Shown here in pieces: positions 9,057 to 42,050 of a stretch of 64,000 bases of DNA. The stretch is taken from the NCBI RefSeq assembly GCF_003332305.1, contig NZ_QOIO01000003.1, positions 62,001 through 126,000 on the forward strand, written 5' to 3'. Both the position numbers and the translations under genes were made by a program. The notes under the pieces were generated by a model that was not told where the DNA came from, did not search any database, and saw only the letters and a list, made by a program, of their open reading frames with translations. Positions within the stretch are counted from its first letter, which is position 1; each line of letters starts with the position of its first letter. The stretch comes from Microvirga aerophila. Lineage in GTDB: Bacteria > Pseudomonadota > Alphaproteobacteria > Rhizobiales > Beijerinckiaceae.

Positions 9057-9073
9057 CGTAACCCCCCGGTGAG

Positions 9074-9101: not shown

Positions 9102-9458
9102 ATAATAGGCCGCGGGAGGTCAATTGCTCGGGACCTTGCTGCGGTTTAGGAAATATATCCAGTGCCCGCGCAGATATGCGTGGGAGAGTGCCCCAATACT
9201 TGACTTCAAGAGCCAGAATCGAGTCTTTTAAATCTGATTTTCGACCTTATTGCAGTAAATTTAGGTAAAACTTATATCGATATCAGACTATTGCTGACGA
9301 ATAGGGTGAGATAGCTTCATCTTTAGAGTAACTAGTACGTGCACTCTGCGCGTTAATACCATCAGTTCCCAGGAAAAAATATCTGAAACTGAAGGTGGGC
9401 ATCCCTGTCTGCGCCTCCCTTCGCCGCGCGCCGCTGATGCGGCAACCATGGAACTGAC
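9102..9458. other. AT-rich intergenic region ahead of the primase-helicase gene
   Basis: No gene is seen. The stretch 9225-9330 is clearly more AT-rich than its surroundings, with TTTAAATCT and TTATATCGATATCAG. It probably holds the promoter, and possibly control sites, of the replication gene that follows. I cannot pick a single convincing promoter. Confidence 0.4.
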
Positions 9459-11564: not shown

Positions 11565-11595
11565 CCTGCCCTAACCATCGTTGTTGTTGTTATTG

Positions 11596-11686
11596 GTGAC
11601 GAAAGTGATCGAATTCTGAAATAAAAAACGAGAAAGAAAAAAGGGAAGGGGTGTCACACTTGTTTCAACCCGATCACTTTCGTCAC
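11596..11686. repeat. 16-bp perfect inverted repeat with 59-bp spacer
   Basis: GTGACGAAAGTGATCG (11596-11611) recurs as its exact reverse complement at 11671-11686. The spacer is A-rich (AAATAAAAAACGAGAAAGAAAAAAGGG). It lies 31 bp after the primase-helicase stop. It could be an origin-like initiator site or a large hairpin in RNA. Confidence 0.65.
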
Positions 11687-11840
11687 GCCCTTTCCAGTCA
11701 CCAATGAACTGAGCGACACAAGGCAAGTACCTGAAGGCGTTTGAGCCCAAGAAGGGACCCAATCCAGGTGGAGATCAATTCCCCTGCCGTGGTAAGCGGA
11801 CCTGTTTTACATCGAGATGTACCAGTGATGAGGGGCCATA

Positions 11841-17105: not shown

Positions 17106-18020
17106 ATGAAACACGTTACCCTCATTACCACCTGCACTGGGCGCAAGCGCGTGCTTCCAAAAGAGGAGGCTCACTTTCGGAATGTGCCAAAGTGGGATCC
17201 CGACGCGGCTGCCCGGCATTGGCTCAGCCAGCTTGCTGGGCTCGGGCGAACCCGCGCAGATAAGATGTACAGTGGTCGCGGGTTTGCTGAGGCTCGACGT
17301 GCGGCGGAATTGCTCGGAGCTCCCCTGAAGATTATCTCTGCTGGGCTTGGGTTGGTTGATGCGGAGGCGGAGGTACCCTCGTACGAGGCGACCATCTCGC
17401 CAGGGTTGCCTAATGCGATCCCGACCCATCTCGGCATTGCTCCGGATCACTGGTGGGCTGTGCTAAAGCAGTATCAGCGGTTTGAATGGCCTTCTGGTTG
17501 TCGCCTTCTGCTCATTGCGGCCTCTGGCTCTTACCTGCAAATGGTTGAGCGGGACCTGCTCACATTGCCGGTGGAGCGTCTCCGTTTGTTCACCCGTACG
17601 GAGGTTGGTGCGCTCCCGGCTGACTTAAGGTCGGCCGTGATGCCGTACGATGATCGCCTAGAGGCTGAGGGTGGCCGGCCTGGTACTGTTGCTGATTTCG
17701 CGCAGCGGGCGATGGCGGATTTCACGCAGTTCATCCTGCCCAACTCATTTACGGGAGGTGTCGAGGATCACGCAGCCTTGGTCAGGTCCCGCCTTGAGCC
17801 GCTCGCTGCTCCAATGAAACGGGTCGGTCGTAGGGCAACTGACGACGAAATCAGGGCTGCTATCGGTGTCCATTACCATGCTGTTGGCGGGCAAAGTTCC
17901 CGCATGCTGCAGAAACTGCGGCGTGAACTCGGGATTGCTTGCGAGCAATCTCGTTTCCGAGATCTGTTCAACAATTTCGAGGAGCTTCAGGGGGAGGGCA
18001 TGGAATGTCTCCCGCTATGA
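17106..18020 (+). CDS. dpdC: DpdC-like protein (YaaA-like fold)
   Basis: The 304-residue protein opens with VTLITTCTGRKR and has MYSGRGFAEARRAAELL and ISAGLGLVDAEAEVPSYEATI, motifs of the YaaA/DUF6884-like fold. In the Salmonella dpd cluster DpdC converts preQ0 already in DNA to the amido form (ADG). The identity as DpdC rests on the fold and on its place at the head of the dpd train, so it is less certain than dpdA. AAGG lies five bases before the ATG. The end overlaps dpdB1 by 16 bp. Confidence 0.65.
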   Translation: MKHVTLITTCTGRKRVLPKEEAHFRNVPKWDPDAAARHWLSQLAGLGRTRADKMYSGRGFAEARRAAELLGAPLKIISAGLGLVDAEAEVPSYEATISPGLPNAIPTHLGIAPDHWWAVLKQYQRFEWPSGCRLLLIAASGSYLQMVERDLLTLPVERLRLFTRTEVGALPADLRSAVMPYDDRLEAEGGRPGTVADFAQRAMADFTQFILPNSFTGGVEDHAALVRSRLEPLAAPMKRVGRRATDDEIRAAIGVHYHAVGGQSSRMLQKLRRELGIACEQSRFRDLFNNFEELQGEGMECLPL

Positions 18021-19129
18021 GCCATGTCGTCGTTCGGGCGCTTCGCGCTGTCCAGGGTGATGGAGTTCCAGTCTACTCATTCTTTTTGCATGGATCTGAC
18101 ATCACAAAGGTGGCGGACATCAGTCGCATTGCCCGAGATGATACGGATGGATTGCGTGGGTTTCAGCGTAAGGAAATCCGGGAGCATGTGAACTCGATTC
18201 TCGAGTTTCTCAACAGCGGTCCTGTGCTGTTCCCCAATGCAATCATTCTGGCCCTTTCGCAGGAAATTGAGTTTCGGCAGTCGCGGGGGCCTGCCCCCGA
18301 GGGACTCATTGAGGCAGCGCAAGGCGGCACCCTGACGATCCCCATTCACCCAGAAGGCCAGCGTGCTGCGTGGATCGTTGACGGGCAGCAGCGCTCCCTA
18401 GCTTTGGCGAAAGCCAAAAATCCGAGGTTCCCGGTTCCGGTTGTCGGCTTCATCTCTCCCGACATCGGCACGCAACGCGAGCAGTTCATCTTGGTCAACA
18501 AGGCGAAGCCCTTGCCGACCCGGTTGATCAACGAGTTGCTTCCCGAAATCGGCAGCGTCCTGCCGCGAGACTTGGCTCCTCGGCGGTTGCCGTCAGAATT
18601 ATGTAACCTGCTGAACCGGGATCCGTCGTCGCCATTCTATCATCTCATCCGTAGAGAGTCCGACAGCGAGCGTGACAAGGCTGTCGTCATTGATACGGCG
18701 CTTGTCGAGGCGATCAAACGTAATCTTCGACCTCCACTCGGGGCTCTGAGCCAATTCAGTGGTTTGCCCAGCGCCGATACGGATGGGATGTACCGCAGCT
18801 TGATTATGTATTGGTCCGCCGTCCGAGACATATTTCCCCACGCCTGGGGGCGGAGGCCAACCGAGAGTCGCCTGATGCATTCAGCCGGCATTCGCGCCAT
18901 GGGGGCCCTCATGGACCCCATCATGCTGAGAGCGGAGACCTCGACAACCATCGAGGAGGAGGTGCGTCGTTCGCTGAGTCGGATTGCTCCGTACTGCCGC
19001 TGGACTGAAGGTGTCTGGGAGGAGCTTGGTTGGCGCTGGAATGAGGTTCAGAGCACCACACCCCACATCTCGAGGCTGTCTGATTACCTCGTTCGCCTCG
19101 ACCGAGATCTCGCAAGGCCACACCGATGA
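18005..19129 (+). CDS. dpdB: DpdB paralogue 1 (DGQHR/DndB-like domain)
   Basis: DpdB works with the transglycosylase DpdA to insert preQ0 into DNA and is reported to hydrolyse ATP. The diagnostic motif here is DGQQR at residues 126-130, with GFQRKEIREHV upstream and QFILVNKAKPLP downstream, as in DGQHR/DndB proteins. I place the start at ATG 18005, seven bases after GGGGAGG (17991-17997) inside the end of dpdC; ATG 18017 is a second option. The stop overlaps dpdA in ATGA. A second, clearly homologous copy follows dpdA. Confidence 0.82.
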   Translation: MSPAMSHVVVRALRAVQGDGVPVYSFFLHGSDITKVADISRIARDDTDGLRGFQRKEIREHVNSILEFLNSGPVLFPNAIILALSQEIEFRQSRGPAPEGLIEAAQGGTLTIPIHPEGQRAAWIVDGQQRSLALAKAKNPRFPVPVVGFISPDIGTQREQFILVNKAKPLPTRLINELLPEIGSVLPRDLAPRRLPSELCNLLNRDPSSPFYHLIRRESDSERDKAVVIDTALVEAIKRNLRPPLGALSQFSGLPSADTDGMYRSLIMYWSAVRDIFPHAWGRRPTESRLMHSAGIRAMGALMDPIMLRAETSTTIEEEVRRSLSRIAPYCRWTEGVWEELGWRWNEVQSTTPHISRLSDYLVRLDRDLARPHR

Positions 19130-20412
19130 AGTTCATCTTTGCCGACTCTCTGGATATGGTCGATCCGCACTACGACATGCTGGCCGACCGCCATGCGCCG
19201 ACCCGTAAACCGTACTGGGATGACCTCTACCCGCACGAGATCCTCGGGTATGCTCCTTATGATGGCATCCTTGTGTCGCGCGGAATCGTCGGCGATCATA
19301 GGGTCGCCGGAAAATACAGTGCCTCGCAGGCGATGCGATTCCAAATCGAAGGAGCTCGCAAGTTCCTGCGCCTCGACAGTGAACGGTATCGACATCTCGC
19401 CATTTATGGAGACTGCGGTGCCTTTACCTATGTGAACGAAGAAGTTCCTCCTTACAGCCCTGAGGAAATGATCGACTTTTACGACCATGGTGGTTTTACG
19501 CACGGCTGTTCGGTCGATCACATCATATTCGACTATGAGGATGGTCTGCAGAAACTCGAGGGCGAAACGGAAGAAAGGCGGCGGCGGTTCGACATTACGC
19601 TCGACAATGCGAGCAAGTTCTTCGCCTTGGCGCACCGAATCAGCAACCGGTTCACGCCCCTCGGTGTCGTGCAGGGCTGGTCCCCTGGCAGCATGGCGGT
19701 CGCTGCCGAGCGGTTGGTGCGTATTGGATATACCTATCTTGCCATCGGCGGCATGGTACCCCTGAAATCCAACCAGATTCAAAACTGTCTGCGGGCAATC
19801 CGTGCAGCCATCCCGTCGAATACGAGAATTCATGTGCTCGGCTTCGCCAAGGCTGACGACATAGAATCGTTCCTTGAATTCAACATCACGAGCTTCGACA
19901 CAACGTCGCCTCTGATCAGAGCGTTCAAGGACGACCGGCAGAACTACTACCTGCCTGCGGACAAGGGCCGCCTGAAGTACTACACCGCCATTCGGGTGCC
20001 TCAGTCGATCGAGAACACACGACTGCAGCGCCTGGTCAAGCGAGGGGCCTTTCGTGCGGAAGACCTGACTCGGTTGGAAAAGACGGCTCTTTCGGCACTT
20101 CGGGCTTTTGACCGAAATGAAAACGAGGTCGAGGAGACCACACAGGCCGTGATGGCTTACAACGCGGTCCTGGCAACGGAGCGCCCCTATGCGGACGTGG
20201 CTGAGACGCCGAAAATAAAGGCATTAGCGGACCGGTACCGTGAGACGCTCAGCGACCGCGCCTGGCGTCAGTGCTCATGTGCCATTTGCCAGAGTGCCTC
20301 AATCGACGTGATCCTCTTCCGCGCGAGTAACCGTAACAAGCGCCGCGGTATTCACAACCTGGGCGTCTACAAACATCTTATCAACAATCTCGACATCAAA
20401 GAGGCCGTCTGA
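19126..20412 (+). CDS. dpdA: DpdA, DNA guanine transglycosylase (TGT-like)
   Basis: The protein (428 aa) carries the queuine tRNA-ribosyltransferase fold adapted to DNA. YGDCGAF (Asp96) corresponds to TGT DSGGFQ; VVQGW and AIGGM match the base-binding loops; HVLGFAKADDI matches the GxG phosphate loop; FDTTSP puts the likely nucleophile at Asp258. The zinc site is intact as Cys383, Cys385, Cys388 and His410 (CSCAIC...H). It exchanges guanine in DNA for preQ0 with DpdB. It starts in ATGA overlap with dpdB1, and dpdB2 begins immediately after its stop. Confidence 0.93.
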   Translation: MKFIFADSLDMVDPHYDMLADRHAPTRKPYWDDLYPHEILGYAPYDGILVSRGIVGDHRVAGKYSASQAMRFQIEGARKFLRLDSERYRHLAIYGDCGAFTYVNEEVPPYSPEEMIDFYDHGGFTHGCSVDHIIFDYEDGLQKLEGETEERRRRFDITLDNASKFFALAHRISNRFTPLGVVQGWSPGSMAVAAERLVRIGYTYLAIGGMVPLKSNQIQNCLRAIRAAIPSNTRIHVLGFAKADDIESFLEFNITSFDTTSPLIRAFKDDRQNYYLPADKGRLKYYTAIRVPQSIENTRLQRLVKRGAFRAEDLTRLEKTALSALRAFDRNENEVEETTQAVMAYNAVLATERPYADVAETPKIKALADRYRETLSDRAWRQCSCAICQSASIDVILFRASNRNKRRGIHNLGVYKHLINNLDIKEAV

Positions 20413-21519
20413 ATGCGCCATCTGACCTTTAATGCAATCCGGGCGGATCAAAGCAAATCCCATACGGTCGTGTCATTCGCCGCGTCCGCCAGGGAGATTC
20501 TCACATTTGCAGCAATCGACCGAATTGGCCGGGACAGCGAAGGCAATCTGAGTGGCTTTCAGCGGCCACAAATTGCCACTCACATCCGAGAAATCCGGGA
20601 CTATCTTGAAAAGCCCGATGCGATCCTGCCCAACCCCATCGTGGTCGCCTTTACGAGGGGTGTAAAGGTGACAGACGGCGACGATTCAGTCTGCAAGATC
20701 AAGATCGATGTTTCGGAGGGGCCTCTCGGCCTCGTCGTGGATGGACAGCAGCGCCTAACCGCCTTGTCCCAGCTGGAAGATAAGGACTTCAGGGTGTTTG
20801 TGTCTGTGGTGATCTGCCGTGATGAGGCGGAGCTGCGCCGGCAGTTCGTGCTGATCAACAACACGCGGCCGTTGCCGAAGTCCCTCATCTACGAACTGCT
20901 CCCTGGTGTCGAGAGCCTGCCCCCGCGCTTTGAGAGCCGCTCGATTGCAGCAGAGTTCACCGACAAGCTGAATTATTCTTCAATTTCTTCCCTCAGGGGA
21001 CAAATCCACCAGCATACCAACCCTAATGGCATTATCAGCGACACGGCGATTCAGAAGGTCATCATGAACTCTCTGAATGATGGCATTTTGCGTGACTTCA
21101 TGCCGTCAGCGAATGGGCGCGAGCGAAGCCTGAAGCTGGTCAGTGAGTTCTACAAAGCCGTCCAGCGGGTTTTCCCAGAGGCGTGGTGGGGGCATACTCC
21201 AAAAACGTCCCGGTTGGTCCATGGCGCCGGCATTGGTGCCCTCGGCTATGTCATGGAGGTGCTTGCGACCCTGGACGGCGCACGATCCTGGGAGGAATTC
21301 GCAAAGGGCATGGGCTGCCTTGTGGACCGAACCGCCTGGACGGGGGGCGAGTGGGACTTTGGCGGTGGCGACGTCCGTCACTGGAAAGCCATCCAAAACG
21401 TCAATCGGGACGTCACCACGCTCGCGCAGTACCTGGTCAAGGTCGTGCGCGCCGATCTGAAAGCGCGGCGCTCAAAGGGTCTCGATTCAGCACCCTTGCT
21501 TGAGGCCATGACCGGATAG
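20413..21519 (+). CDS. dpdB: DpdB paralogue 2 (DGQHR/DndB-like domain)
   Basis: This 368-residue protein shares the DpdB pattern: GFQRPQIATHI, DGQQR at 110-114, QFVLINNTRPLPKSLIYELLP, and a C-terminal part with ARLVHGAGIGALG-like sequence (SRLVHGAGIGALG) also seen in paralogue 1 (SRLMHSAGIRAMG). The two differ too much to be a recent duplication. Its ATG abuts the dpdA stop with no gap. A DpdB heteromer or division of labour is possible; which copy is the canonical DpdB cannot be told from sequence alone. Confidence 0.82.
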   Translation: MRHLTFNAIRADQSKSHTVVSFAASAREILTFAAIDRIGRDSEGNLSGFQRPQIATHIREIRDYLEKPDAILPNPIVVAFTRGVKVTDGDDSVCKIKIDVSEGPLGLVVDGQQRLTALSQLEDKDFRVFVSVVICRDEAELRRQFVLINNTRPLPKSLIYELLPGVESLPPRFESRSIAAEFTDKLNYSSISSLRGQIHQHTNPNGIISDTAIQKVIMNSLNDGILRDFMPSANGRERSLKLVSEFYKAVQRVFPEAWWGHTPKTSRLVHGAGIGALGYVMEVLATLDGARSWEEFAKGMGCLVDRTAWTGGEWDFGGGDVRHWKAIQNVNRDVTTLAQYLVKVVRADLKARRSKGLDSAPLLEAMTG

Positions 21520-21525
21520 CAACCG

Positions 21526-22158
21526 ATGGCTTACACAGTCAAAGAGGTCTTCAAGACGTTACAAGGCGAAGGAGCGCAGGCTGGGCGAGCGGCTGTGTTT
21601 TGCCGGTTTTCCGGTTGTAACCTCTGGTCTGGGCGGGAGGACGACCGCAGCCGAGCCATATGCCAGTTCTGTGATACCGACTTTGTTGGAACAGATGGGG
21701 TCGGAGGAGGGCGGTTCCAGTCAGCGGAAGCCTTGGCCCAGGCGATAGAGGATGCCTGGGCAGGAGCGGGGCGCCAGCGGTTTGTTGTTTTCACCGGGGG
21801 GGAACCGCTGCTCCAACTCGATCAATTCCTAATCGAGGCTGTGCGAAGGCGTGGTTTCGAGGTTGCGGTTGAAACTAATGGGACGGTCGAGGCCCAGCCA
21901 GGGTTGGACTGGGTCTGTGTCAGCCCCAAAGCCGGCGCTCCCCTGCGCCAATCCCGCGGCAACGAACTCAAGCTCGTCTACCCTCAGGTCGGACTTGACC
22001 CTGCCACCGTGGCCGGCTTGGCGTTCGAGCACTTTTGGTTGCAGCCCATGGATGGACCAAGGCGTGAGGCAAATACAGTGGCTGCGGTCGAGTACTGCCT
22101 GCAGAATCCCCGTTGGAGATTGAGCTTGCAAACCCACAAACTTATTGGGATTCCGTAA
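21526..22158 (+). CDS. queE: QueE, 7-carboxy-7-deazaguanine synthase
   Basis: QueE is the radical SAM enzyme that turns 6-carboxytetrahydropterin into 7-carboxy-7-deazaguanine on the way to preQ0. The unusual cluster motif C-x14-C-x2-C typical of QueE is present as Cys31, Cys46 and Cys49. The substrate-binding start FKTLQGEG and the SAM motif FTGGEPLLQ are also present. The 210-residue length is normal. It lies six bases after dpdB2 and its stop is followed directly by queD (TAAATG). Confidence 0.95.
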   Translation: MAYTVKEVFKTLQGEGAQAGRAAVFCRFSGCNLWSGREDDRSRAICQFCDTDFVGTDGVGGGRFQSAEALAQAIEDAWAGAGRQRFVVFTGGEPLLQLDQFLIEAVRRRGFEVAVETNGTVEAQPGLDWVCVSPKAGAPLRQSRGNELKLVYPQVGLDPATVAGLAFEHFWLQPMDGPRREANTVAAVEYCLQNPRWRLSLQTHKLIGIP

Positions 22159-22542
22159 ATGTTTGGGCTGAGCAAACAGTTTTGGTTCGAGGCTGCTCAC
22201 ACGCTTCAGCGGACAATTGACGCTGAACCCAGTCGGCGCATCCATGGTCACTCCTATCGGGCTGAGGTGACGGTCCGCGGCGTTCCGGATCTCTCAACTG
22301 GCATGGTGGTAGACTTAGGTCTGTTCGAACGGGCGCTTGATGAGGCGCGCGACGGACTCGACCACCGGTTCTTGGACGAGGTTCAGGATCTGGGGCCTGC
22401 AACCATGGAAAATCTGTCGGCGTGGATTTGGCGAAAGGTTGCGCCAACGTGCACCGGGTTGGCTCGGGTCACCATATACCGCGACAGCAGCGGCGATATG
22501 TGCGGCTATCTCGGTCCACTCAATGGGGAGAACCGGCTGTGA
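22159..22542 (+). CDS. queD: QueD-like 6-carboxytetrahydropterin synthase, Ser in place of catalytic Cys
   Basis: The zinc ligands of the COG0720 family are present: His14 (FEAAH) and His29/His31 (HGH). QueD should convert dihydroneopterin triphosphate to 6-carboxytetrahydropterin. In QueD the catalytic Cys lies four residues before the first His of HGH (CxxxHGH); here that residue is Ser25. The downstream Asp-His-Arg of the active site (LDHRF) and the later Glu (PATMEN) are kept. The protein may be less active, use another residue, or be helped by a chromosomal QueD. The stop overlaps the GTG of queC. Confidence 0.88.
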
Positions 22543-23258
22543 CGCATGGCGCTCTCGTCTTATTCTCGGGTGGGCAAGACTCGACCACGTGCTTAGCCTG
22601 GGCCTTAGATCGGTTCGAGACCGTTGAGACAGTGGGGTATGATTACGGTCAGCGGCACATTGTCGAACTTGAGTGCCGCAAAACGATTCGCGACCGCCTT
22701 GCCCGTGAGTTTCCCCAATGGGCAGGTCGGATCGGAGAAGACCATACGATTCGGATCGATGCTCTCAAAGAGATCTCGAACACGAGCCTCACCCAAGACG
22801 TCGAAATCGCCATGGGGAATGATGGCCTCCCCAACACCTTTGTGCCAGGGCGCAATCTCATCTTTCTCACGTTCGCGGCGGCCCTCGCCTACCGCCGTGG
22901 CCTGAAGCATATCGTCGGCGGCATGTGCGAGACGGATTTTTCCGGCTACCCTGATTGCCGGGATGACACCGTCAAAGCCATGCAGTTGGCACTCAACCTC
23001 GGCATGGATCGCCGCTTCGTCCTGCATACCCCTCTCATGTGGATCAACAAGGCCGAGACCTGGGAACTCGCACAGGAGCTTGGGGGTGACGCTTTGGTCG
23101 AGATCGTGCGAACCGAGACACATACTTGCTACCGCGGCGACCGGGGCGACCTGCATGACTGGGGGTATGGATGTGGTGAATGTCCGGCCTGTGAGTTGCG
23201 CGCAGCAGGTTATGAGCAATGGGGCGTAGCGTCTGTCCAAGAAGGAGTCTCTCAATGA
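22539..23258 (+). CDS. queC: QueC, 7-cyano-7-deazaguanine (preQ0) synthase
   Basis: QueC uses ATP and ammonia to make preQ0 from 7-carboxy-7-deazaguanine. The PP-loop LFSGGQDST is at the N-terminus, and the zinc cluster is visible near the end as GCGECPAC plus an earlier Cys (HTCYRG). I choose GTG 22539 because it overlaps the queD stop (GTGA), has GGGGAG about eight bases upstream, and puts the PP-loop where the family has it. The stop overlaps the ATG of the transporter gene (ATGA). Confidence 0.95.
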
Positions 23259-23818
23259 ATTTGGAAGCTCGGCGTAGAGTCGAAGGCTATGTATTTTTGG
23301 CAGCATTTGCCGCATGCATTCCAGCCGCCAACTGGTTCATTGGCCATATCGGGACAGTGTGCCCTCCAAGCAGTCCATGCCTGTTGCCAGTCGCGCCAGG
23401 AATTTTGGCACCGAGTGGCGTTTTGATGGTCGGACTGGCTTTGGTGCTGAGAGACCTCGTGCAGCGCAGGCTTGGTAAGGTGTGGACGCTCGGAGCAGTG
23501 CTGGTGGGTGCGGTGTTGTCGGCCCTGCTGGCACCGCCGGCGCTCGTGGTCGCCTCCGGTCTGGCGTTCCTGATCTCAGAACTGGCGGATTTTGCCGTTT
23601 ACACGCCGCTGCAGCGCCGTGGCCTCGTGTTGGCTGTAGCCGCCAGCAGCGCAATAGGGCTCGTGGTCGACAGTGTCCTGTTCCTATGGCTAGCATTTGG
23701 AGACCTGTCCTTCTTGGTCGGCCAAGTTCTGGGCAAGAGTTGGATGGTGCTTCTCGCTTTGCCGGTGATTTGGCTGCTCCGCGAGCGGGACGCTCGAATC
23801 GGCTTTCAGCCGGCATAA
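23255..23818 (+). CDS. YhhQ-like (VUT family) queuosine-precursor transporter
   Basis: The 187-residue protein is strongly hydrophobic with about six membrane segments. [13 protein letters not shown] is a hallmark of the YhhQ/VUT family of preQ0/preQ1 importers. ATG 23255 overlaps the queC stop in ATGA, which fixes the start. Its place at the end of the preQ0 biosynthesis genes suggests it brings in 7-deazapurine precursor to supplement synthesis. It is somewhat shorter than E. coli YhhQ. Confidence 0.8.
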
Positions 23819-24117
23819 AGAGGCGGACTGATCTCGAACTCCGTTGTTCACTACAGTGAAACGACATCCCGGCAACAGTATCATAGCCGCAATGACATTA
23901 CTTACACAGGCAAAATAACCTGGTCTATTATAACGACATAGCGTTTATAGGAGCTCGGTTCACCAGAACATCTGTGCTACAATCACCTATTGGTTGTGTC
24001 CCCGGCGCCACATGGACATTCAGGAGTCCCTAGACGTGGTGCATTCCCCTTGGAATTCTCATCCTTTCCTCTACGCTGAGCCGAAAAAGGGGCAGTGGAG
24101 CACTGCGGGGGCAATTC
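23819..24117 (+). other. Junction between the modification and restriction operons
   Basis: About 300 bp without a gene separate the transporter from dpdE. The dpdE frame is open back to 24034 but without ATG or GTG before 24118. A weak promoter candidate lies at 23902-23931. The stretch 23880-23950 is AT-rich, as expected for a promoter. Confidence 0.5.
23902..23931 (+). promoter_or_regulatory. Possible promoter of the dpdE-D operon
   Basis: TTACAC (23902-23907) and TATTAT (23926-23931) are separated by 18 bp. The -35 is imperfect. It is the best match in the gap. Confidence 0.25.
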
Positions 24118-27100
24118 GTGCTTGTAAGGGCAAATGGCGGCAACTGGGCATCACTTGGGGTAGGCAAGATAATCAAGAGGCTAGGCGAGCACTGCGCAGT
24201 CGAGTATTTTGATGCGCCTACCTCTGCACCTGTCGTCCACGAGATTGAGGTCGTCCACTTAGAAGCAATAACTCTGCCCGAGCAGACACGTGTTTACCAC
24301 TATAATTCTGTGGGCGCTTGGGAGATCGGGCGTATTCTCGACGATCAGGGCGATCGCCAATTAGTCCGGTTTCCCAACGGCGTGACCAAGCATCTAGACG
24401 TGAGCGATGTCTTCGTGCGTTGGTCAGTGCCCATTGCTGACCCAACGCCATTTCTTGCGAATAAAATCAATGAGAGCCCCCGCTTCTCTGATGGAAGAAG
24501 CGCGTTCATGCGCTCGCTCATTGCTCAGCGCGCAGCTTCTATGGGCATGTCCGCGCTGCTCTCGTCTGCAGTAGAGCTCGAAGCGCACCAGATTGAGGTG
24601 GTTCGGCGCATTCTGCAGGATCCAGTCCAGCGCTACCTCCTTGCGGATGAGGTCGGGCTCGGCAAAACCATCGAAGCCGGGGTGCTCATCCGGCAATGCG
24701 TTCTCGACTCAGCCGACGATGCCTGGATTCTCGTACTCGTTCCTGAGCCTCTTATCGCGCAGTGGCGTTCTGAGCTTTCAAGCAAATTCTTCCTTGAGCA
24801 CAGTTTGGACAAACGGGTTCACGTCATTGCTCATGGAGATGCCGACCGCATCCGATCACTGATCGGTAAGGCGACGATGCTGGTGATCGACGAAGCGCAT
24901 CACCTGACTGATATGAGGTCGACTGGAGACCAGGGCATCTACCACGAGATTGCCGCAGCAGTTTCTGAAATCGAGCGGATCCTACTCCTCTCTGCTACGC
25001 CCGCACTGCACAATGAGCGAGGCTTCCTACGAATGCTGCACCTTCTTGATGCGAAGACCTATCCTCTCGACGGGGAAGCCGCGTTCCGCCGCAAGATCGA
25101 AGCGCGTCAGGTGCTAGCCGAGATCGTCGCCGGACTCACACCAGAGAACGTGCTTTACCTCGATTATACGATCGATCAACTGGCCCACCTTTTCCCAAAC
25201 GATGGGCTGATGCAGGAACATGCCTCTGCGCTTCACGCCGTGATTGACCAGATGCCTGGGGAAGACGACCCGGGGTTGATCGAAGCCATCGGGCGGGTTC
25301 ATGCCCATCTGAGTGAAGTCTACCGGCTCCATCGACGCATCCTACGCCACCGTCGGCGCAGCATTGGCGGTCTCACACCAGACAGGTCAGGTGTCCAGAT
25401 CATCGAATATTCTTCTCCTGACATGGCAGCATTGACGGCTGCCATGGATGATTGGCGTTTCGCCGAGGTCTCTCATCTCGGAGACGACCAGAGCGGTAAG
25501 GTTTGGTCGGATCGTGTGCGCGCGTTCTGGCAGGTGCTAGACCGAGCGTCTCATTATCCAATCTCCGGCAGCGGGGGAATTGGTTTTCTAGCTCGCCGCC
25601 CCGCACTCATCGGTGACGCTGAGAGGTTTGGCCGGATTGAGAGGTTATTGGCGCGACCGGGGCTGTTCCAGGACCGCGCGACAGCTTTAGCTGATGCCCT
25701 TCCGCCTTTGCTCTCCCGCAAAGCCCAGTGCGTAATCTTCTGCTCCGACCCAAAAACCGCAGATGCATTAGCGAAATTCTTGGCAGATCGTCTGAATAAG
25801 ATTGTCGACCGGCACAGCCCAGATGATGACAGCTGGCTCGTCTTCAACGATGATCCAACTCACGCTATTCTTGTCTGTGACCGCCGCGCTGAGGAGGGGC
25901 TGAACCTTCAGGGCGGAAGGAAAATCGTTGTCCATTATGATGTTCCGTTCAACCCCAATCGCATCGAGCAACGTTTGGGGCGCGCCGACCGCTACGGGTC
26001 AGGGGATCCGGTTCTGTCTCTGGTCCTCCAATGCAACGATGATCCGCTCGGCGGTGCCTGGACAGGCTATCTGAGCACAGGCCTGCGGGTCTTCAGTCGC
26101 TCGGTCGCAAGTCTCCAGTACCTGATTGATGACACCATACGTGGCCTGTCTTCTGCGCTTTTCTCTGATGGATCCGAAGCGCTTGCCGACCTAACCAGAG
26201 AGAGTGCCGGAGAGCAGGGGATCATTGAGCGCGAGATTCGCAACATCGACCAGCAGGATGCCCTTGACGCCTTGGGCATGCCGCCGACACAACTCCTCGA
26301 CGATCTCTCAGATATCGATGATGACTGGCGTTCGATCGCCGCCGATACCACAGTCTGGCTCGAGCGAACCCTGCAGTTCGTCCGCGCAGAAGATCGAACT
26401 GTGGGATCACTGGACGTCAGCGATGCTACGCCATTTCGTTACCACTACTCGACTTCGAGTCGGCACACACTAATTCCCCTTGCAACGGTCATGGAGCATT
26501 GTGAACCTTCACTCGACGTCGTCTCGAACTCGCATCGGGCCCGGGCTATACGAACCATTCCGTATACGTTTCGGCGCCGCACCGCCCTGACCCGAGGCGC
26601 ACGTAATGCGGGTGTCGGACTCTTGCGCTATGGTGATCCGTTCATTGCCGGTATGACCGCGATTACTGAGGCCGATGACCGTGGGCGGTCCTTTGCGATG
26701 TGGCGCTTCGTGCCCGGCTACAAGTCTCATCAGAGTGCCGACATTTTCCTAAGGTTCGATTTCGTGGTCGAAGCTGATCTCGAACTTGCCCACAATGTGC
26801 TCGACCGCTTTGGGCGCAATCAATCAGCATCGACGGCGGCAATAAGGCGCCGCGGTGATATGGCGCTGCCGCCATTTTTTAAGACGGTCTGGCTCACTCA
26901 GGAGTTTGAGCCAGTCGAGGACCCGGCGCTCCTCGAAGTGCTAACCCGACCATATGTGCCCGAGCCACAGGATGCCGGTGGACGAGACTTCAACCTGAAT
27001 GCCCGGCGGTGGGAAAGCGTCCGCCGACTGAATATCCCAGAGCTCGACTACTGGTCCGAGTTTTGCAGCAAAGCCCGTATCGAGGCCGAAGTGGCACTGC

Positions 27101-34697: not shown

Positions 34698-37600
34698 TGC
34701 CAAGCGGTGATGACTTTCTTCTGGCCGCGCTCGACAGGGTTGAACAACGAGAGGCGCGGCTGCTGACCTGGGGACTCGTCGACGGCTTTGTGTCGGGCGA
34801 GGAGCTCCATGGGATTATCGATGGACTTTTAGATGACCCGCATTTTGGCGCGACCGTGAGCTTCCAAAGTGCAGCTGAGGTCATTGACGCGCTCAAGTCA
34901 CGGGCGCTCCTGTTCGATGTAGGCGACGAAAAGGGCACCCGCTTCCGTTCGCGAATGGCCGAGGCTGTCCGACTGTTCTTCCGATTGCGCCAGTTGTTCA
35001 CCAAACACAATGGACCGACAGGGTGGCAGACTGCGCCGACGCTCGTCGCGGACTTCCGCTTCCTTTGGCGCCGACGTCGGTACCCCAGGCGCGATATCGA
35101 TGCCGAGGCAGCCCTCGCATCGATCAGCACCGCCACGCCTGATACGGCAGCCCGCGTGGCCATAAAGGCATTGATCGAGAGCTACGGGCCCAGCTTCGCC
35201 CTTGCCCAGTTCCAGGTCAACGCCGCGCGCCGCATCCTTAGTGGGTTCGAGAGCCCTCGGTCTTTGGCTACCCTGGTGAGCGCTGGGACCGGCAGTGGCA
35301 AGACACTCGCTTTCTATTTGCCTGCGTTATCGCGTATAGCCTCCAACATTCAACACGCCGCCGCAGACAGTCGATGGGTCAAGGTCCTTGCACTGTACCC
35401 ACGCAATGAACTGCTCAAGGACCAGTTCTCCGAAGTTTATAGCCAAGCGCGACGGCTCGACGCTACACTGGCCGCAAAGGGCCGCCGCAAGATCCTGATC
35501 GGAACGTTCTTCGGTCCGACACCGAACGATGCTGATACGGCGCACCAGGCCCGCAGCGGTTGGCGAACTCATTCCGCTGGCCTGATCTGCGAGTATCTGC
35601 GCTGCCCATGCAATGGCTGTGATGGCGATCTGGTTTGGCGCGAGTCCGACCGAAAGGCAGGTCGTGAGAGATTATCGTGTCTCGCTTGCGGACACGTGGT
35701 CGACAATGATGAAGTTATTCTCACCCGGCGGCGCCTCGAAGCCGAAAGTCCCGACATTCTGTTCACGACAACCGAAATGCTGAACCAGCGGATCGGGGAC
35801 AATCGCTTCCGTCATCTCTTCGGAATTGGCGACAGGGCCGAGCGTCCCGTCGAGATGATGCTGCTTGACGAGGTTCACACCTATTCTGGCAGTTCAGGCG
35901 CTCAGGTCGCATTTCTCCTCCGCCGCTGGCGATGGATGCTGCGCAGGCCTGTCAGCTTCGTTGGCTTATCGGCGACGCTTAAAGATGGGGCACGTTTCTT
36001 TGCTCGTTTAACGGGCCTCTCCGAACAGGTATCACTTGAGGTCACGCCACGCAGCCGTGACATGATCGCCGAGGGCGCCGAGTATCTCCTTGCACTGCGC
36101 GGCGATCCGGTGTCCCGCACCGCTCTTCTGTCAACCACTATCCAGACCACGATGCTGCTGTCGCGCGTGCTAGATGCACCGGACACACGGAAGAGCGGAG
36201 GCGTTCTGGGTGAGCGAGTATTTCTCTTCACCGACGATATTGACGTTACCAACCGCATGTATTTCGCGATGCTTGACGCTGAGGGCCGGAAGAGCGATGG
36301 CGTGTTCGACATGATTAGGCATCGCACCGGTGGCTTGGCCGCCCTGCGTCGCCCCCTGCCGAGCCAGCATCGAAAGATCCACGGTCAAGATTGGGAGGCT
36401 GCGGTCGCAATCGGCCACAGCCTTCAGGCTCAAGACCGCAAGGCGGTCGGCCGCGTCATGTCGATGGATCCGGGCGTGGGCAATAATCTCGATATCGTCG
36501 TCGCCACCGCTTCGCTTGAGGTGGGGTTTAACGATTCAAAGGTGGGGGGTGTCATCCAGCACAAGGCGCCCCGCGACATTGCACAATTTCTCCAGCGGAA
36601 AGGGCGGGCGGGTCGGTCACGGCGCATGCGACCCTGGACCATCGTCGTTCTCTCTGATTATGGCCGTGACCGTCTCGCCTATCAGGGATACGACATGCTG
36701 TTCGATCCTGAACTTCCGCTCCGTACTCTTCCGACTGGAAATCGTCATGTCCGTCGCATGCAGGCTGTCTATGCCACTCTCGACTACTTGAGCCAAGCGA
36801 TCGGGCCAGTTAAGCGTGGCAGCGTCTGGGCCAACTTGGCTGGCCCAGTTGAGCATTCGAGTCAGCGCGAGCGTCAGCGAGTCTTGGCAGATGAAATCAA
36901 GCGCATCATCAGCGTTCCCGCTGAGCAGGAGCGCTTTGCCACCTATCTTGGGCAAGCGCTGCGCATCAACGAGGATGAGGTGCGGCTCCTGCTATGGGAT
37001 CATCCACGGCCGCTGCTGACTCAGGTCCTCCCGACGGCGCTCAGGCGCCTTGAGAGCGGTTGGTCTGCCTCTGGCCGCACTGGCGAGGACTACCACATAT
37101 CAAACTCGCCGCTTCCCGAGTTTGCACCCGCCAACCTCTTTAGCGACCTAAATTTACCCGAGGTGAATATTGTTCTGCCTCGACCGGGCAGTGAGACGCC
37201 TGAAGGGGTTACCATGCCTATCACTCAGGCGATGCGTGAGTTCGCCCCAGGCCGGGTGTCGCGACGCTATGGCATCAGTCATGCGTTCGAGCGCCATTGG
37301 CTTTGTCCCCCACTTGACCAGAACCGGGCGCAGACCGTTCCGCTCGCGCCCAGTCTGCAAACCGATCGTCTCGGCAACTGGATGATCCACAGCGAGGCCG
37401 GACCATGCTGCCTGCCGGTGTTTCGTCCTCGGGTCATCAACGTGCAGCAACCGCCTGCAAATGTAATCGATACGTCAAACGCACGTCTCAAATGGCGCAC
37501 GCAGCTCGTCGCGCGTGACCCCGGCCTCATTCTTGATCCACCACGCGGAAGTCCCTGGACCAATCTTGTCGCCGATGTCCGATTTTTCACCCACCAGGGC

Positions 37601-39250
37601 ATGAACCCGATCGAGGCCAGGCGCATGGCACTCGGCAGTGATGCCGTGCTCCGCTTTCGGGACGGGAGTTCGCTGAACAAGGACTTCAGTTTTGAGGTCA
37701 ACGGCACGGCAGCGGCGCTTGGCTTCAGCCTTGCGGTTGATGCACTGTGCATCAGGTTACGTTTCCCAGAAGCATTGTGGTCGGATCTCGGCGAGGAAAC
37801 CAGTCAACGTTACCGCGCAATGAGAACGGCGCGCTTCCATCACGAGGCAATTTATGGACCCTATCTCCGCGCCGTCGACAACCCATTCGCACGGGAGTGG
37901 TTGGCCCATCTCCTGCTTGCCACACTCAGCAACGAGGCGATTGCCAAGTTGATCAGTCTAAAGCAGGCTGCAGACAATCTTACTAACGGTAAAGCCGACC
38001 TTAACCTCGAGCAAACGCTGAACGTCTTGTTCCAGTCACCCGTCGTCGACGACGCTGACGGCCAGGGCAATGTCCAGGATAAGCTCAGACAGGAGCTCGC
38101 AGGATATCTCGGCGATGCGCAGGTCAATGCGGGCCTGCTTAGCTTGGCTGCTGTCCTCTGGACTCCGATCGATGCAAATTGGGAACCGTGGTTGCGTGAG
38201 CGTTTCGCCACCACGGCCGGCGCCGCTGCGTTCAATGCAATCCTGAGTACTTGCCCAGAGATCGACGGCGAGAGCCTTGTCGTCGACGTTGATGCCGGAC
38301 CCCGCAGCGAGGAAGATGTGCTGGAGGGCGATCGGGAGACTGAGATATGGATCAGCGAACTGACGCCAGGCAGCAACGGGCATATTGAGGAGGTTCTGCG
38401 CCAGTATTCGGAGGATCCACGCCGCTTCTTCAGCCTCATGACAGGTGCGCTGCGCGACAATGACTTTTCCTTGAGCGATTTCCAGCTGCGCCGTTTCCTT
38501 GAGAATGTCGTTGAGGGCGATAGCAACAGTGAGATTGGTGTTGCGACGCGCGCTTTTCGTGACGCCTACGGCGCCGACGAAAGCCACCGTACTTTTACCG
38601 CGCTCCGACAAAGCTTGGCAGAGGAGGGCTTTATCACCTTCCATGCATTCATGGTCGCGCTTGCCAATCGTGTGCTGCGACCCGGTTCGGGACCAGAGAG
38701 CGACTCCTTTTTCCTTGACGCTATCCGGATGTGGAGCCAGCAAGAAGAACGGCTTGGGGTCGAACTCGATGCGCGGGTGCTCGCTTATCGGTTAGCACGC
38801 AGCAGCGACATCGATGCGGCGCTCGGATTGGCCGGAATCGAAGCGCCAACGGTTAACCCCGACCAGTGGCGGTTCGGCGTCGTGTATGGCCTGTTGTGGC
38901 CCCGCGGTGCCCATATTCGGCAATCGGGCCTCCGCCTCTACTCGCCTTTTGCCGACCTGCCCTCGCCCGAGACACTACTAGTCAACGCGTATCTCAAAGA
39001 AGGGGCCGCACTAGTCGATTTGTGCGACCCCGCATGGCGCGACCAGTGCCTCGATCAACTCGCGCGCACCGGCGCAGTTACCTTATCATGCCCTATGACG
39101 GCAGCTTCTGTTCTCGCCGACGCTTTCAGCTTTCTTGCGACTAACCCGGTTCAGACAAACTATCTTTCTGTCTTCGCTCGGATCCAGGCGGTTCGCCGTG
39201 TCACTGACAGGTTCCACGTTGATGTTGACATCGCGGAGGCAATCCAATGA
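34697..39250 (+). CDS. dpdJ: DpdJ, very large DEAD/DEAH helicase with zinc motifs
   Basis: This protein of about 1517 residues has Walker A AGTGSGKT (Lys202), motif II DEVH (391-394), SATL, and a C-lobe with LEVGFNDSKVGGV and FLQRKGRAGRS. Between motifs Ia and II sits a Cys cluster (C305-x2-C308 and C328-x2-C331), probably a zinc ribbon. The domain order resembles YprA/DrmA-like helicases of defence islands. The start at 34697 is chosen for its TGATG overlap with dpdI and GGAA upstream; 34679 is the alternative. It overlaps dpdK (ATGA). Confidence 0.85.
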   Translation: MPSGDDFLLAALDRVEQREARLLTWGLVDGFVSGEELHGIIDGLLDDPHFGATVSFQSAAEVIDALKSRALLFDVGDEKGTRFRSRMAEAVRLFFRLRQLFTKHNGPTGWQTAPTLVADFRFLWRRRRYPRRDIDAEAALASISTATPDTAARVAIKALIESYGPSFALAQFQVNAARRILSGFESPRSLATLVSAGTGSGKTLAFYLPALSRIASNIQHAAADSRWVKVLALYPRNELLKDQFSEVYSQARRLDATLAAKGRRKILIGTFFGPTPNDADTAHQARSGWRTHSAGLICEYLRCPCNGCDGDLVWRESDRKAGRERLSCLACGHVVDNDEVILTRRRLEAESPDILFTTTEMLNQRIGDNRFRHLFGIGDRAERPVEMMLLDEVHTYSGSSGAQVAFLLRRWRWMLRRPVSFVGLSATLKDGARFFARLTGLSEQVSLEVTPRSRDMIAEGAEYLLALRGDPVSRTALLSTTIQTTMLLSRVLDAPDTRKSGGVLGERVFLFTDDIDVTNRMYFAMLDAEGRKSDGVFDMIRHRTGGLAALRRPLPSQHRKIHGQDWEAAVAIGHSLQAQDRKAVGRVMSMDPGVGNNLDIVVATASLEVGFNDSKVGGVIQHKAPRDIAQFLQRKGRAGRSRRMRPWTIVVLSDYGRDRLAYQGYDMLFDPELPLRTLPTGNRHVRRMQAVYATLDYLSQAIGPVKRGSVWANLAGPVEHSSQRERQRVLADEIKRIISVPAEQERFATYLGQALRINEDEVRLLLWDHPRPLLTQVLPTALRRLESGWSASGRTGEDYHISNSPLPEFAPANLFSDLNLPEVNIVLPRPGSETPEGVTMPITQAMREFAPGRVSRRYGISHAFERHWLCPPLDQNRAQTVPLAPSLQTDRLGNWMIHSEAGPCCLPVFRPRVINVQQPPANVIDTSNARLKWRTQLVARDPGLILDPPRGSPWTNLVADVRFFTHQGMNPIEARRMALGSDAVLRFRDGSSLNKDFSFEVNGTAAALGFSLAVDALCIRLRFPEALWSDLGEETSQRYRAMRTARFHHEAIYGPYLRAVDNPFAREWLAHLLLATLSNEAIAKLISLKQAADNLTNGKADLNLEQTLNVLFQSPVVDDADGQGNVQDKLRQELAGYLGDAQVNAGLLSLAAVLWTPIDANWEPWLRERFATTAGAAAFNAILSTCPEIDGESLVVDVDAGPRSEEDVLEGDRETEIWISELTPGSNGHIEEVLRQYSEDPRRFFSLMTGALRDNDFSLSDFQLRRFLENVVEGDSNSEIGVATRAFRDAYGADESHRTFTALRQSLAEEGFITFHAFMVALANRVLRPGSGPESDSFFLDAIRMWSQQEERLGVELDARVLAYRLARSSDIDAALGLAGIEAPTVNPDQWRFGVVYGLLWPRGAHIRQSGLRLYSPFADLPSPETLLVNAYLKEGAALVDLCDPAWRDQCLDQLARTGAVTLSCPMTAASVLADAFSFLATNPVQTNYLSVFARIQAVRRVTDRFHVDVDIAEAIQ

Positions 39251-39786
39251 GCTTCGAGTCGCGCCGCATTTTTAAGAGCGCAGTGACGAGCCAGAACCTT
39301 GTCCGCGAGTTGTTGCAACTCATGCTGCTGGGCGAACTGCTGGCGCCTGGAGGCGATCGCGTTTGGTTTGTGAGTCCATGGATTAGCAACATCGTTCTTT
39401 TCGACAACCGAGCCGGCGGCTTCGGGTCGATCAATCCGGAATGGGGCATACGCGAAGTCCGACTTGTCGAAGTTGTTACGGACTTGATCGTGCGAGGGAC
39501 GCCGCTCGGGATCGCGACCAGTTTCGATGCGCACAATGATACCCTGATTGACGCAATTGGCGAAGCGACTGACGAGGCTGGTGTGCGCGACAAACTCACA
39601 ATCGTGCGCCGGCAACACCTTCACACCAAGGGGGTGCTTCTGAAACGCGGGCTCCTGACGGGCTCAATGAATCTTACGTACAACGGCCTCGAACTCAACG
39701 ATGAGGTGGTTGTCTACGACACAACTCCCAAGACGCTAGCCGAAGCTCGGCTCAACTTCGAGTCCTATGTTGAGAGTGGCACATGA
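39247..39786 (+). CDS. dpdK: DpdK, phospholipase D-like nuclease
   Basis: A single HKD-type active site is visible: His126-x-Lys128 followed by GSxN (Gly139, Ser140, Asn142) and an acidic residue in NDEVVV. PLD-family nucleases with one motif usually act as dimers. In Dpd this is the most likely DNA-cutting subunit. The N-terminal half (WFVSPWI, LGIATSFD) fits the same fold. It overlaps dpdJ and dpdD by ATGA at either end. Confidence 0.87.
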   Translation: MSFESRRIFKSAVTSQNLVRELLQLMLLGELLAPGGDRVWFVSPWISNIVLFDNRAGGFGSINPEWGIREVRLVEVVTDLIVRGTPLGIATSFDAHNDTLIDAIGEATDEAGVRDKLTIVRRQHLHTKGVLLKRGLLTGSMNLTYNGLELNDEVVVYDTTPKTLAEARLNFESYVESGT

Positions 39787-42050
39787 TCCACGCTCTGCCC
39801 GAACCAGAAACTGCCTGGCTTGGAGCGTTTTTTGCCGCGCCGAACGCACTTGGATGGGAAGCAATCGTCGACGGATCCGCCCCTGCCGATGTGATCGAGC
39901 AGATCCGGCTGTGGCTCCAACCCCTGCTGAAGGGAGAGAGTAACGTGCCGATCATTCTCCCGTTCGCTCGGACTGTGCCTCACGCTGTCACCGGTTGGTA
40001 CGCCACTACTCCAGGCCCACGGGGTGGCTATGAGCTCGGGGAAGAGCTGCAAGCCTGGCTCGGGCCAACCTACCTGAATGTTTTCGAGTTGGTGCCAGCG
40101 GGAGGCAAGGACCCTATGGCGGGCGCCATGCGTGCTCGTTTCAGCGGGACCGTCTATCGCTTCGCGGGGTCCGATGCTGCTGCTAATGGCAGGATTGCTG
40201 CACGCGTTGCGGACTACGGTGCATTACTGCGCAGACGCCCAGCCATTCTTAGGCGTAGCACTCGGCCTGTTGGGAGCATACGGGCCGATTTTGAGCGGGC
40301 ACTCCTGGCGCGGGACGAAACCCGTGCCGAGGAATTGATAGTTGAATTGCGGGAAACTGGCCGGCTCAACGAGGAGAACCTCCGCTACCTTGATATCCGC
40401 CTCAAAGCGGGACTCGGCCTTTGGCCACAGGTCGCACGCGATCATTGGCTGATTCTAACGATGTCAGACTTGGCCCTGCCACCGCAGACCCTCGCTGACA
40501 TCATCGAGGCGCTTTTTCGCACCTACGTTGATGAGGTGGAGGCAACCGGGGATTTTGCCGCCACGCGCCAGGCGTTCGACCAGCATATTGCTAAGCGCTA
40601 TCCACGCTTATTCGCTTCGCGGCGGGGAATCCGGATTCCCCATGTCGTTAAAGCTTTCCTCCTTTACGAACTCCTTCAACCCCGACCAAATCCGCAGATC
40701 ATCGGCGATTTGGTAGCACTATTGCCGGAAAGGGAGCATGGATCGGTTCTGATGCAGGCTGCCGTGAGCGCCGCTAATGCGTCAACGGCGCCTGCTACGA
40801 GCGAGGCAAATGCTGATGAGGCATTCGACGACGCGCAGTATGATCGCGCGTTCGAGCTGTATCTCGCTCTTCCGCTCAGCCGCAGATCGATCACCCGGCT
40901 TCTGTCCTGCGTATTGTTCATCGGTACTGAGGAGGCGACGCGGCGGCTCCGAGCTGCGGTGGATGGTGCCGACAGCGAACTCATTGCAACTCTCCCGCCG
41001 CCGGTCCAGCAGAGAATATCCGATCTGCGTACATCAACTCCTGACGTATCTGAGACTTCGGACGTCAATTCAGCGTCGAGTCCCTGGACGCGTTGGGCTG
41101 AGCAGTTAAAGCGCGGGACGGACCCCGCCGACGCCGAGAGGTCCGTCCAGGCGGCAGCGACCAGTTGGGACATTGCGCCTTTTCAGGAGAGCCAGCACTT
41201 ATCAAAGGCTTTTGCTGACACACTCGGGAATCTCAGCGGGGAGGCCGAAGCAGTCGTTCGCCGGTCGGTCCCACAGATTTTCGCGGCCTTCTTCCCATCA
41301 GCGGCTCAGACTGCGCCCGGGGTGAAGCCGATAGCCGCCGTCCTGTTTGTCCTGATCGCGATGGGCGAATCTCTATCGCGCACTGACCTAGACCTCCTAG
41401 CGCAACTCCTGAACTCCTTGCTGAGCTTTGGTTTGTCAGCAGACGACTATGTGTCTGTCATCGCTGATCTGGAAGACGTTCAGAGCCGCGTCGGATCTTA
41501 CACGCATTTGCCCTGGAGCCTTGATGTCTGCGAAGCGCTCGCTGTCGCACCGTGCCCCTCCGACGCTGGGCACAATGCCCGGCTCCAGTTATTTCTGAAG
41601 GTGCTTGGCCAAGCGCAAGCCTTCGCACATCGGCTAGGGCCTCAGGACCTGCTGCCAATTGAATTTGTGGCCAAAGATTACGGCATTAGCCACGAAGCAA
41701 TTGTTTCGCTGAAGCGCGTGAGTGATGAGGACACCTCCCGACCCACGCTTCCGACTCTGGACGGCAAAACGCTCGGCATCTACACACTTGAGGAGGCTGC
41801 AGGCAGCAGAGCGAAACAGGCTCTCGAGATGATGTTCCCCGGTTGCCGTGTTGAGGTAAATTCCGATCTCGTATGCACCGCTAAACTCACGAGTCTCGCA
41901 AGAGCGGCTGACCTATTTGTGTTCGCCTGGAAAAGCAGCAGTCATCAAGCCTTTTACTGCGTGAAGGGGGCCAGTCCAAGTGAACCCGTCTGGGCACTTG
42001 GCAAGGGTACGGCGAGCATTCTTCGGGCCGTTCTAGATAACCTGGAGTAA
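39783..42050 (+). CDS. dpdD: DpdD, unassigned Dpd restriction component
   Basis: The 755-residue protein is the last gene of the train and matches DpdD by position and size; no catalytic motif is evident. It is mostly helical, with a low-complexity S/T/D-rich linker at about residues 415-440 (TPDVSETSDVNSASS). The C-terminal 100 residues (DGKTLGIYTLEEAAGSRAKQ, then ADLFVFAWKSSSHQA) look like a separate alpha/beta domain. The two 20-residue pieces hint at a nucleotide- or NAD-binding-like fold of the kind seen in defence sensor domains, but this is weak. Confidence 0.7.
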   Translation: MIHALPEPETAWLGAFFAAPNALGWEAIVDGSAPADVIEQIRLWLQPLLKGESNVPIILPFARTVPHAVTGWYATTPGPRGGYELGEELQAWLGPTYLNVFELVPAGGKDPMAGAMRARFSGTVYRFAGSDAAANGRIAARVADYGALLRRRPAILRRSTRPVGSIRADFERALLARDETRAEELIVELRETGRLNEENLRYLDIRLKAGLGLWPQVARDHWLILTMSDLALPPQTLADIIEALFRTYVDEVEATGDFAATRQAFDQHIAKRYPRLFASRRGIRIPHVVKAFLLYELLQPRPNPQIIGDLVALLPEREHGSVLMQAAVSAANASTAPATSEANADEAFDDAQYDRAFELYLALPLSRRSITRLLSCVLFIGTEEATRRLRAAVDGADSELIATLPPPVQQRISDLRTSTPDVSETSDVNSASSPWTRWAEQLKRGTDPADAERSVQAAATSWDIAPFQESQHLSKAFADTLGNLSGEAEAVVRRSVPQIFAAFFPSAAQTAPGVKPIAAVLFVLIAMGESLSRTDLDLLAQLLNSLLSFGLSADDYVSVIADLEDVQSRVGSYTHLPWSLDVCEALAVAPCPSDAGHNARLQLFLKVLGQAQAFAHRLGPQDLLPIEFVAKDYGISHEAIVSLKRVSDEDTSRPTLPTLDGKTLGIYTLEEAAGSRAKQALEMMFPGCRVEVNSDLVCTAKLTSLARAADLFVFAWKSSSHQAFYCVKGASPSEPVWALGKGTASILRAVLDNLE

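Follow-up and report, generated by a model that had tools for sequence, protein, structure and literature searches.

The window analysed here is a stretch of 64,000 nucleotides from Microvirga aerophila (contig C108:62001-126000 of a 6.0 Mb genome in 184 contigs), and positions are given below as window coordinates. Between 17106 and 42050 it carries a Dpd locus, a set of genes for modifying DNA with 7-deazaguanines and for restriction, which comprises sixteen plus-strand genes in two trains, none of them with an internal stop (0 of 16). The original prediction had placed two coupled trains at these coordinates, which are correct, and its description is right as a gene layout, with gaps of -4 to +6 bp within the trains and 299 bp between them. 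The first train, dpdC-dpdB1-dpdA-dpdB2-queE-queD-queC-yhhQ, extends from 17106 to 23818 with successive spacings of -4, -4, 0, +6, 0, -4 and -4 bp, and the second, dpdE-F-G-H-I-J-K-D, from 24118 to 42050 with spacings of -1, -4, -1, -4, -1, -4 and -4 bp. These spacings refer to corrected starts (dpdB1 18017, queC 22539, yhhQ 23255, dpdH 30847, dpdJ 34697). The gap separating the trains (23819-24117, plus strand) contains two weak promoter-like matches (9 of 12).

The modification train begins with dpdC (17106-18020), the proposed hydrolase of dPreQ0 to dADG, which matches the PADLOC DpdC profile at 1.7e-77 and the DUF6884 family under its cut-off. It is followed by dpdB1 (18017-19129), by dpdA for the DNA-guanine transglycosylase (19126-20412), and by dpdB2, a second, divergent dpdB of its own lineage (20413-21519). 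DpdA and both DpdBs lie above the NCBIfam equivalog cut-offs, with 553 bits for DpdA (cut-off 200), 449 bits for DpdB1 (cut-off 300, scored on the longer open reading frame (ORF) 17939-19129) and 383 bits for DpdB2; the PADLOC matches are 8.8e-166 for DpdA and 1.4e-133 and 2e-120 for the two DpdB copies, which belong to the type with the DGQ(Q/H)R motif. That dpdB1 might be an over-called ORF was considered and rejected, as profile positions 2-352 of 352 map to 18029-19090, inside the corrected gene. Residues 1-418 of DpdA align with 7ui4, a solved DNA-guanine transglycosylase (7.5e-97), and the protein keeps two aspartate motifs and the CxCxxC...H motif, whose residues we take to have the roles they have in TGT enzymes. 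A search of the PDB with DpdB2 and DpdC returned nothing at 0.1. The train continues with queE of the Cx14CxxC type (21526-22158; TIGR04508, 354 bits, cut-off 240), a gene for a QueD-like PTPS protein (22159-22542; PF01242 at 2e-28, above the cut-off), queC (22539-23258; PF06508 at 4e-72, exceeding the TIGR00364 cut-off) and a yhhQ-type (Vut_1) gene for a transporter of preQ0 or queuosine precursors (23255-23818; above the cut-off of PF02592, under that of TIGR00697). Neither dpdB2 nor the yhhQ-type gene was part of the original prediction.

The restriction train encodes DpdE, an SNF2-type helicase (24118-27369; PADLOC 5e-275), DpdF, a DEAD helicase (27369-29951; 5e-211), DpdG (29948-30847; 3e-58), DpdH, an AAA ATPase (30847-33978; 4e-135), DpdI (33975-34697; 5e-8), DpdJ, a helicase (34697-39250; E=0), DpdK, a PLD-type nuclease (39247-39786; 6e-47), and DpdD (39783-42050; 4e-77). 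The assignment of DpdJ to the YprA family follows the accessible part of PMC12458937. With simple pattern searches, Walker A motifs were found in DpdH and DpdJ and DExx boxes in DpdE, DpdF and DpdH, and DpdK keeps the HxK and GSMN motifs. DpdI has a 54% identical match at the same position in Agrobacterium vitis and Shinella. All eleven Dpd families, A to K, are matched by PADLOC as had been predicted, DpdI weakly, and these include the eight restriction genes dpdD to dpdK. The proposed division into modification and restriction genes is borne out by the family matches and the layout, and it agrees with the synthesis operon dpdA-C and the restriction operon dpdD-K in the accessible part of PMC11888242.

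With a probability of about 0.85, the locus is a complete Dpd system for self/non-self discrimination, of an alphaproteobacterial subtype with two DpdBs. QueE, the QueD-like protein and QueC would make preQ0, which YhhQ may also import, and DpdA with two specialised DpdB ATPase partners would then exchange guanine in the DNA for preQ0. DpdC would turn part of the inserted preQ0 into the amide (ADG), and DpdE to DpdK together with DpdD would act on DNA without this mark; these chemical steps, the part of the DpdBs as ATPases and the restriction activity are inferred. Several observations weigh against this reading. The QueD-like protein reaches only 68 bits with the NCBIfam QueD model TIGR03367 (cut-off 89.25) and reads SRRIHGH, without the signature cysteine of the CxxxHGH motif. 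DpdI is matched weakly, and neither a Walker A motif in DpdE or DpdF nor a DExx box in DpdJ was found by the simple pattern searches. DpdK has a lysine at the position of an aspartate that is presumably part of the HKD motif, where lysine occurs in four of seven aligned DpdKs and aspartate in three. A DpdB pair is not a universal feature of the class: on the plasmids of Acetobacter pasteurianus and Methylorubrum extorquens AM1, dpdC-dpdA was found but no DpdB (chromosomes not searched). Finally, the deep split between the two DpdB lineages joins long branches that the tree tool flagged as unsafe.

The two DpdBs of M. aerophila are 30.7% identical. As the class sample of genomes gave no comparison set for DpdB, plasmid records were used instead, that is, 25 records with a DpdA match, eleven of them alphaproteobacterial with 46-66% identity; the plasmids were searched and not their chromosomes. 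A B1-like gene before and a B2-like gene after dpdA were found in nine of the eleven alphaproteobacterial records, and the same B1-A-B2 order occurs in Microvirga alba. A DpdB tree of 26 rows groups the alphaproteobacterial sequences into two clades, one of 11 B1 rows (100/100) and one of 11 B2 rows (93/84), the latter becoming a clade of 12 rows at 100/99 together with Variovorax. Midpoint rooting places the DpdBs of Enterobacter, Euzebya and Nonomuraea on the same side as B2, and the deepest splits are not settled because long branches meet at this root. The DGQQR motif and a shared core (GxQR, PN, SRxxH) are kept in all 26 rows. Pairwise distances across 11 loci correlate at 0.82 for A and B1, 0.95 for A and B2, and 0.86 for B1 and B2, which is partly shared descent, since the seven remaining pairs among A, B1, B2, C and QueC reach 0.67-0.83. 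No paper describing a B1-A-B2 pair was found among the matches listed in the open-licence literature.

The supply of preQ0 is less straightforward. QueC has one full-length match in the genome and QueE one TIGR04508 match at a threshold of E 0.001. Since both sit in the island, it is perhaps the only maker of preQ0 in this strain, for queuosine as well as for DNA. FolE, QueF, QueA and TGT are encoded at other places in the genome, outside the cluster. Within the genus, a QueC match better than 1e-20 occurs in 11 of 25 genomes, and the other 14 have short, weak matches only. A single run of queE, queD and queC had been predicted; all three genes are indeed in the train, and queE and queC exceed their cut-offs, but the gene between them falls short of the QueD cut-off. 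CxxxHGH is the PTPS-I signature according to the accessible part of PMC5041015, which also mentions further PTPS subfamilies with motifs of their own, among them one whose function is unclear, and the QueD-like form of the island may belong to one of these. Its C-terminus reads RDS where canonical forms have a glutamate, and the position of its gene between queE and queC is that of a queD. The motif SRRIHGH is common to the relatives in the islands of Skermanella and Caulobacter, and it also occurs in a queE-queD-queC operon of Tistrella, in whose 24-kb stretch no dpd gene is annotated. Microvirga lotononidis and Microvirga VF16 have SEEIHGH, likewise between queE and queC. Canonical CxxxHGH forms were found in six loci (three rhizobial genera, Shinella, Bradyrhizobium and Methylobacterium), and in Azospirillum another CxxxHGH protein is encoded after queC. 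M. aerophila has two further PTPS-family genes, with ALHGATF on contig C131 and CRLIHGY on contig C174 in place of CxxxHGH. The latter (G000:C174:145459-145860) keeps the cysteine and KE, lacks the full HGH, and could be an alternative QueD. The presence of dPreQ0 and dADG in the DNA of this strain, as originally predicted, is a reasonable expectation, which depends on the cysteine-free QueD-like enzyme, on another PTPS paralogue or on preQ0 uptake via YhhQ.

A closely informative comparison is offered by M. alba BT350. A comparison of 84 kb of the M. aerophila genome with 60 kb from M. alba showed two regions of DNA similarity and no others, 17127-21591 (80.3%) and 22500-23814 (85.7%), which correspond to the modification train without queE-queD. 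Ordinary genes of both genomes show 82% over 3 kb around queF; since the divergence of the module resembles theirs, it may date back to the separation of the two species or may have moved between them. The DpdC, DpdB1, DpdA, DpdB2, QueC and YhhQ proteins are 67-94% identical, whereas the island queE-queD is gone in M. alba except for a queE stub (~66 bp), and a separate queC-queD-queE set lies on its contig C18. The restriction genes differ far more. Their proteins are only 26-43% identical over the aligning parts, DpdH and DpdD align over part of their length, no counterpart of DpdI was found among the M. alba restriction genes, and these genes are convergent to the modification genes. The M. 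alba island also lies 3 kb from a tRNA-Ser gene (and near a tRNA-Leu gene), in contrast to the tRNA-Arg gene in M. aerophila. The plasmid DpdJ relatives with 69-90% coverage, five in number, are 35-43% identical to M. alba DpdJ. For the M. aerophila restriction module, identity to its counterparts in A. vitis and Shinella is 54-82%. From these comparisons, the modification and restriction halves appear to be exchangeable, because in M. alba a related modification module stands beside a restriction module that differs greatly. As a separate observation, M. alba dpdH (L014:2459-5442) is read in two overlapping frames, being either disrupted or affected by a sequencing error.

The reading as a complete two-DpdB system has to be weighed against three alternatives. 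The island could be a silent relic whose intact genes are no longer expressed. Its G+C content of 0.52-0.60 per kb at about 9-49 kb is lower than the 0.60-0.72 of the first 8 kb (the contrast on the right is weak, as the flank beyond 49 kb has 0.55-0.64), and no integrase was found among the subset of window ORFs scanned with Pfam, both of which suggest a foreign and possibly old insertion. However, sixteen tightly packed ORFs without internal stops and the preserved motifs of DpdA, DpdB, QueE and QueC make a relic very improbable. Another possibility is that the second DpdB is merely redundant, one copy decaying or having been swapped in, with no role of its own. Extra copies of dpdB are common, with 801 additional ones, the highest number for any dpd gene, in the accessible part of PMC11888242. 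Nevertheless, both copies keep the invariant core in 11 of 11 aligned loci, they belong to two lineages with 28-32.5% identity within each of these loci, and they differ at lineage-specific positions (K188 in B1 and N150 in B2; C353 in B1 and T307 in B2), so that mere redundancy is rather improbable.

The third alternative concerns only the origin of preQ0 and deserves somewhat more weight, although it is still unlikely. The modification half would work, the island QueD-like protein would be a non-working QueD, and preQ0 would come from uptake by YhhQ or from another PTPS enzyme. This would explain the replacement of CxxxHGH by SxxxHGH, the loss of the C-terminal glutamate and the score under the QueD cut-off. 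It would also fit the yhhQ gene in the train, a further YhhQ encoded 2 kb to the left of the window (C108:59489-59938), the cysteine and KE of the CRLIHGY paralogue, and a cysteine-free relative from Aminobacter (36% identity) whose gene lies away from queE and queC. YhhQ is named as a dpd neighbour in the accessible part of PMC11888242. On the other hand, five closer cysteine-free relatives (Tistrella, M. lotononidis, Microvirga VF16, Skermanella and Caulobacter; 51-75% identity) all sit between queE and queC, which indicates that the cysteine-free form is kept in preQ0 operons. In M. alba, a CRLMHGY gene that resembles an orthologue of the C174 paralogue exists alongside a gene of the canonical CxxxHGH form next to queC and queE, so a different role is probable for the HGY form. 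M. alba also lost the island queE-queD while keeping its separate set.

The M. aerophila locus shares the dpdA-K families and the split into synthesis and restriction operons with the systems of Salmonella Montevideo and Kineococcus, as far as these are described in the accessible part of PMC11888242. It differs from that description, which was not compared gene by gene, in its two dpdBs flanking dpdA, in queE, queD, queC and yhhQ being part of the modification train, and in the absence of folE from the cluster. On the Enterobacter cloacae plasmid pPOL9A, dpdA, dpdB, dpdD-H, dpdJ and dpdK are annotated and DpdA is 41% identical, whereas there is a single dpdB, no queE, queD, queC or yhhQ was found within the 41 kb examined, and the restriction genes are convergent to dpdA-dpdB. 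The plasmids of A. vitis and Shinella share B1-A-B2, queE-queD-queC-yhhQ and the restriction module mentioned above, but their modules are convergent, their QueD is of the canonical CxxxHGH form, and A. vitis has two further genes after yhhQ. Near the A. vitis Dpd cluster, a third DGQHR-domain gene (L046:28018-29058) lies between IS5 transposase genes. The two-DpdB plasmids of Skermanella, Methylobacterium and Caulobacter carry a restriction-like set that is divergent, and its DpdJ-like helicase can be aligned with 41-46% of M. aerophila DpdJ.

The rarity of DpdA and DpdB in the genus, the order and the class sample fits an island rather than a core trait. A scan of genome contigs with DpdA gave one locus. 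DpdA above the cut-off occurs in 2 of 25 genomes of the genus (M. aerophila and M. alba) and in none of 16 other relatives of the order, and DpdB above the cut-off in 1 of 385 genomes of the class sample, which is M. aerophila itself, with six others weaker. A tRNA-Arg(CCT) gene lies at 8109, and no exact direct repeat of at least 14 bases from this region (8101-8260) was found elsewhere in the window as a possible attachment site. At 8109-12878, this tRNA gene is followed by a primase-polymerase/D5-like gene (9459-11564) in a satellite-like layout. Further right, a tight train at 48646-52831 comprises two genes without a Pfam match and a gene for an Hsp70-like protein (50876-52831), and TOTE-type conflict genes with S1/CSD and TBP-TOTE domains, which match the PADLOC candidates PDC-M16B and PDC-M16A, lie on the minus strand at 58291-63053.

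Directly beside dpdD, two genes on the opposite strand are candidate companions of the Dpd system. The first, 100 bases from the end of dpdD, encodes a UvrD/AddA-like helicase of 749 amino acids (42151-44400; PF00580 at 4e-52), and the second, 11 bases further, a protein of 1144 amino acids with a NERD-like N-terminus, an AddB/RecC-like remainder and PDDEXK_1 at its C-terminus (44412-47846). The N-terminus of the latter has a PD...ECK pattern without a match to Pfam NERD, the remainder matches RecC weakly (E=0.003), and the C-terminus shows a CxxC...C pattern, which we take to be that of AddB. AddAB consists of the AddA helicase and AddB with an Fe-S (iron-sulphur) nuclease domain. The pair resembles AddAB/RecBCD in having a clear UvrD-like helicase beside a protein with this pattern and a weak relation to AddB/RecC. 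It differs in that no AddA nuclease domain was detected in the helicase, in the N-terminal NERD-like ExK pattern of the partner, and in that, among the records searched, long homologues of both proteins occur only on plasmids with Dpd restriction genes. A match to the 1144-residue protein occurs in 14 of 72,556 plasmid records, in 12 of them over no more than its N-terminal 12-21% and in two over at least 80% (81% and 100%); the same two records, and no others, match the helicase at 1e-40. In Paenibacillus sp. 37, the homologues lie 3 kb after a dpdJ, and the NERD-like part is missing. In Deinococcus taeanensis, where NERD is matched in the N-terminus at 1.7e-6, they adjoin yhhQ and queC on a plasmid with annotated dpdE, dpdF and dpdH. 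No DpdA match was found on this plasmid, which counts against a companion role, since the link here is to restriction and preQ0 genes only. The Paenibacillus plasmid also has two dpdJ genes in two successive restriction-type sets.

It is tentatively proposed, with considerable doubt, that the pair is an undescribed AddAB-like companion that would process unmarked or Dpd-opened DNA and that has moved together with Dpd restriction genes among Pseudomonadota, Bacillota and Deinococcota. With three cases, each from a different phylum, the number is small, defence genes tend to cluster in any event, and no homologues were found at 1e-10 in 15 other stretches (M. alba and ten plasmids). A hypergeometric value of ~2e-8 to 1e-7 for the pair presupposes that the records are independent and equally large, a condition that does not hold for defence islands, and it was not used as a probability; a single-sequence AlphaFold model of the 1144-residue protein (mean pLDDT 35.5) was not used either. 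A single literature search on the combination of this pair with Dpd brought up nothing relevant. If the proposal is true, the Dpd system, many of whose genes are poorly assigned, would gain a further effector in this AddAB-like companion.

The locus is a full member of the known Dpd kind and represents a little-described variant with a second dpdB and an unusual QueD-like supply enzyme. Its gene set is intact, its two DpdB lineages are conserved, and in two Microvirga species differing restriction halves stand beside related modification halves. The conservation of both DpdBs suggests that they divide the work between them, in site choice, strand or ATP-driven loading, in a way that is invisible in systems with a single DpdB, and the QueD-like protein is a test case for the need of the signature cysteine. 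The two Microvirga pairings make target recognition by Dpd restriction testable: if both work, the restriction half would read the shared mark rather than a matched protein fit.

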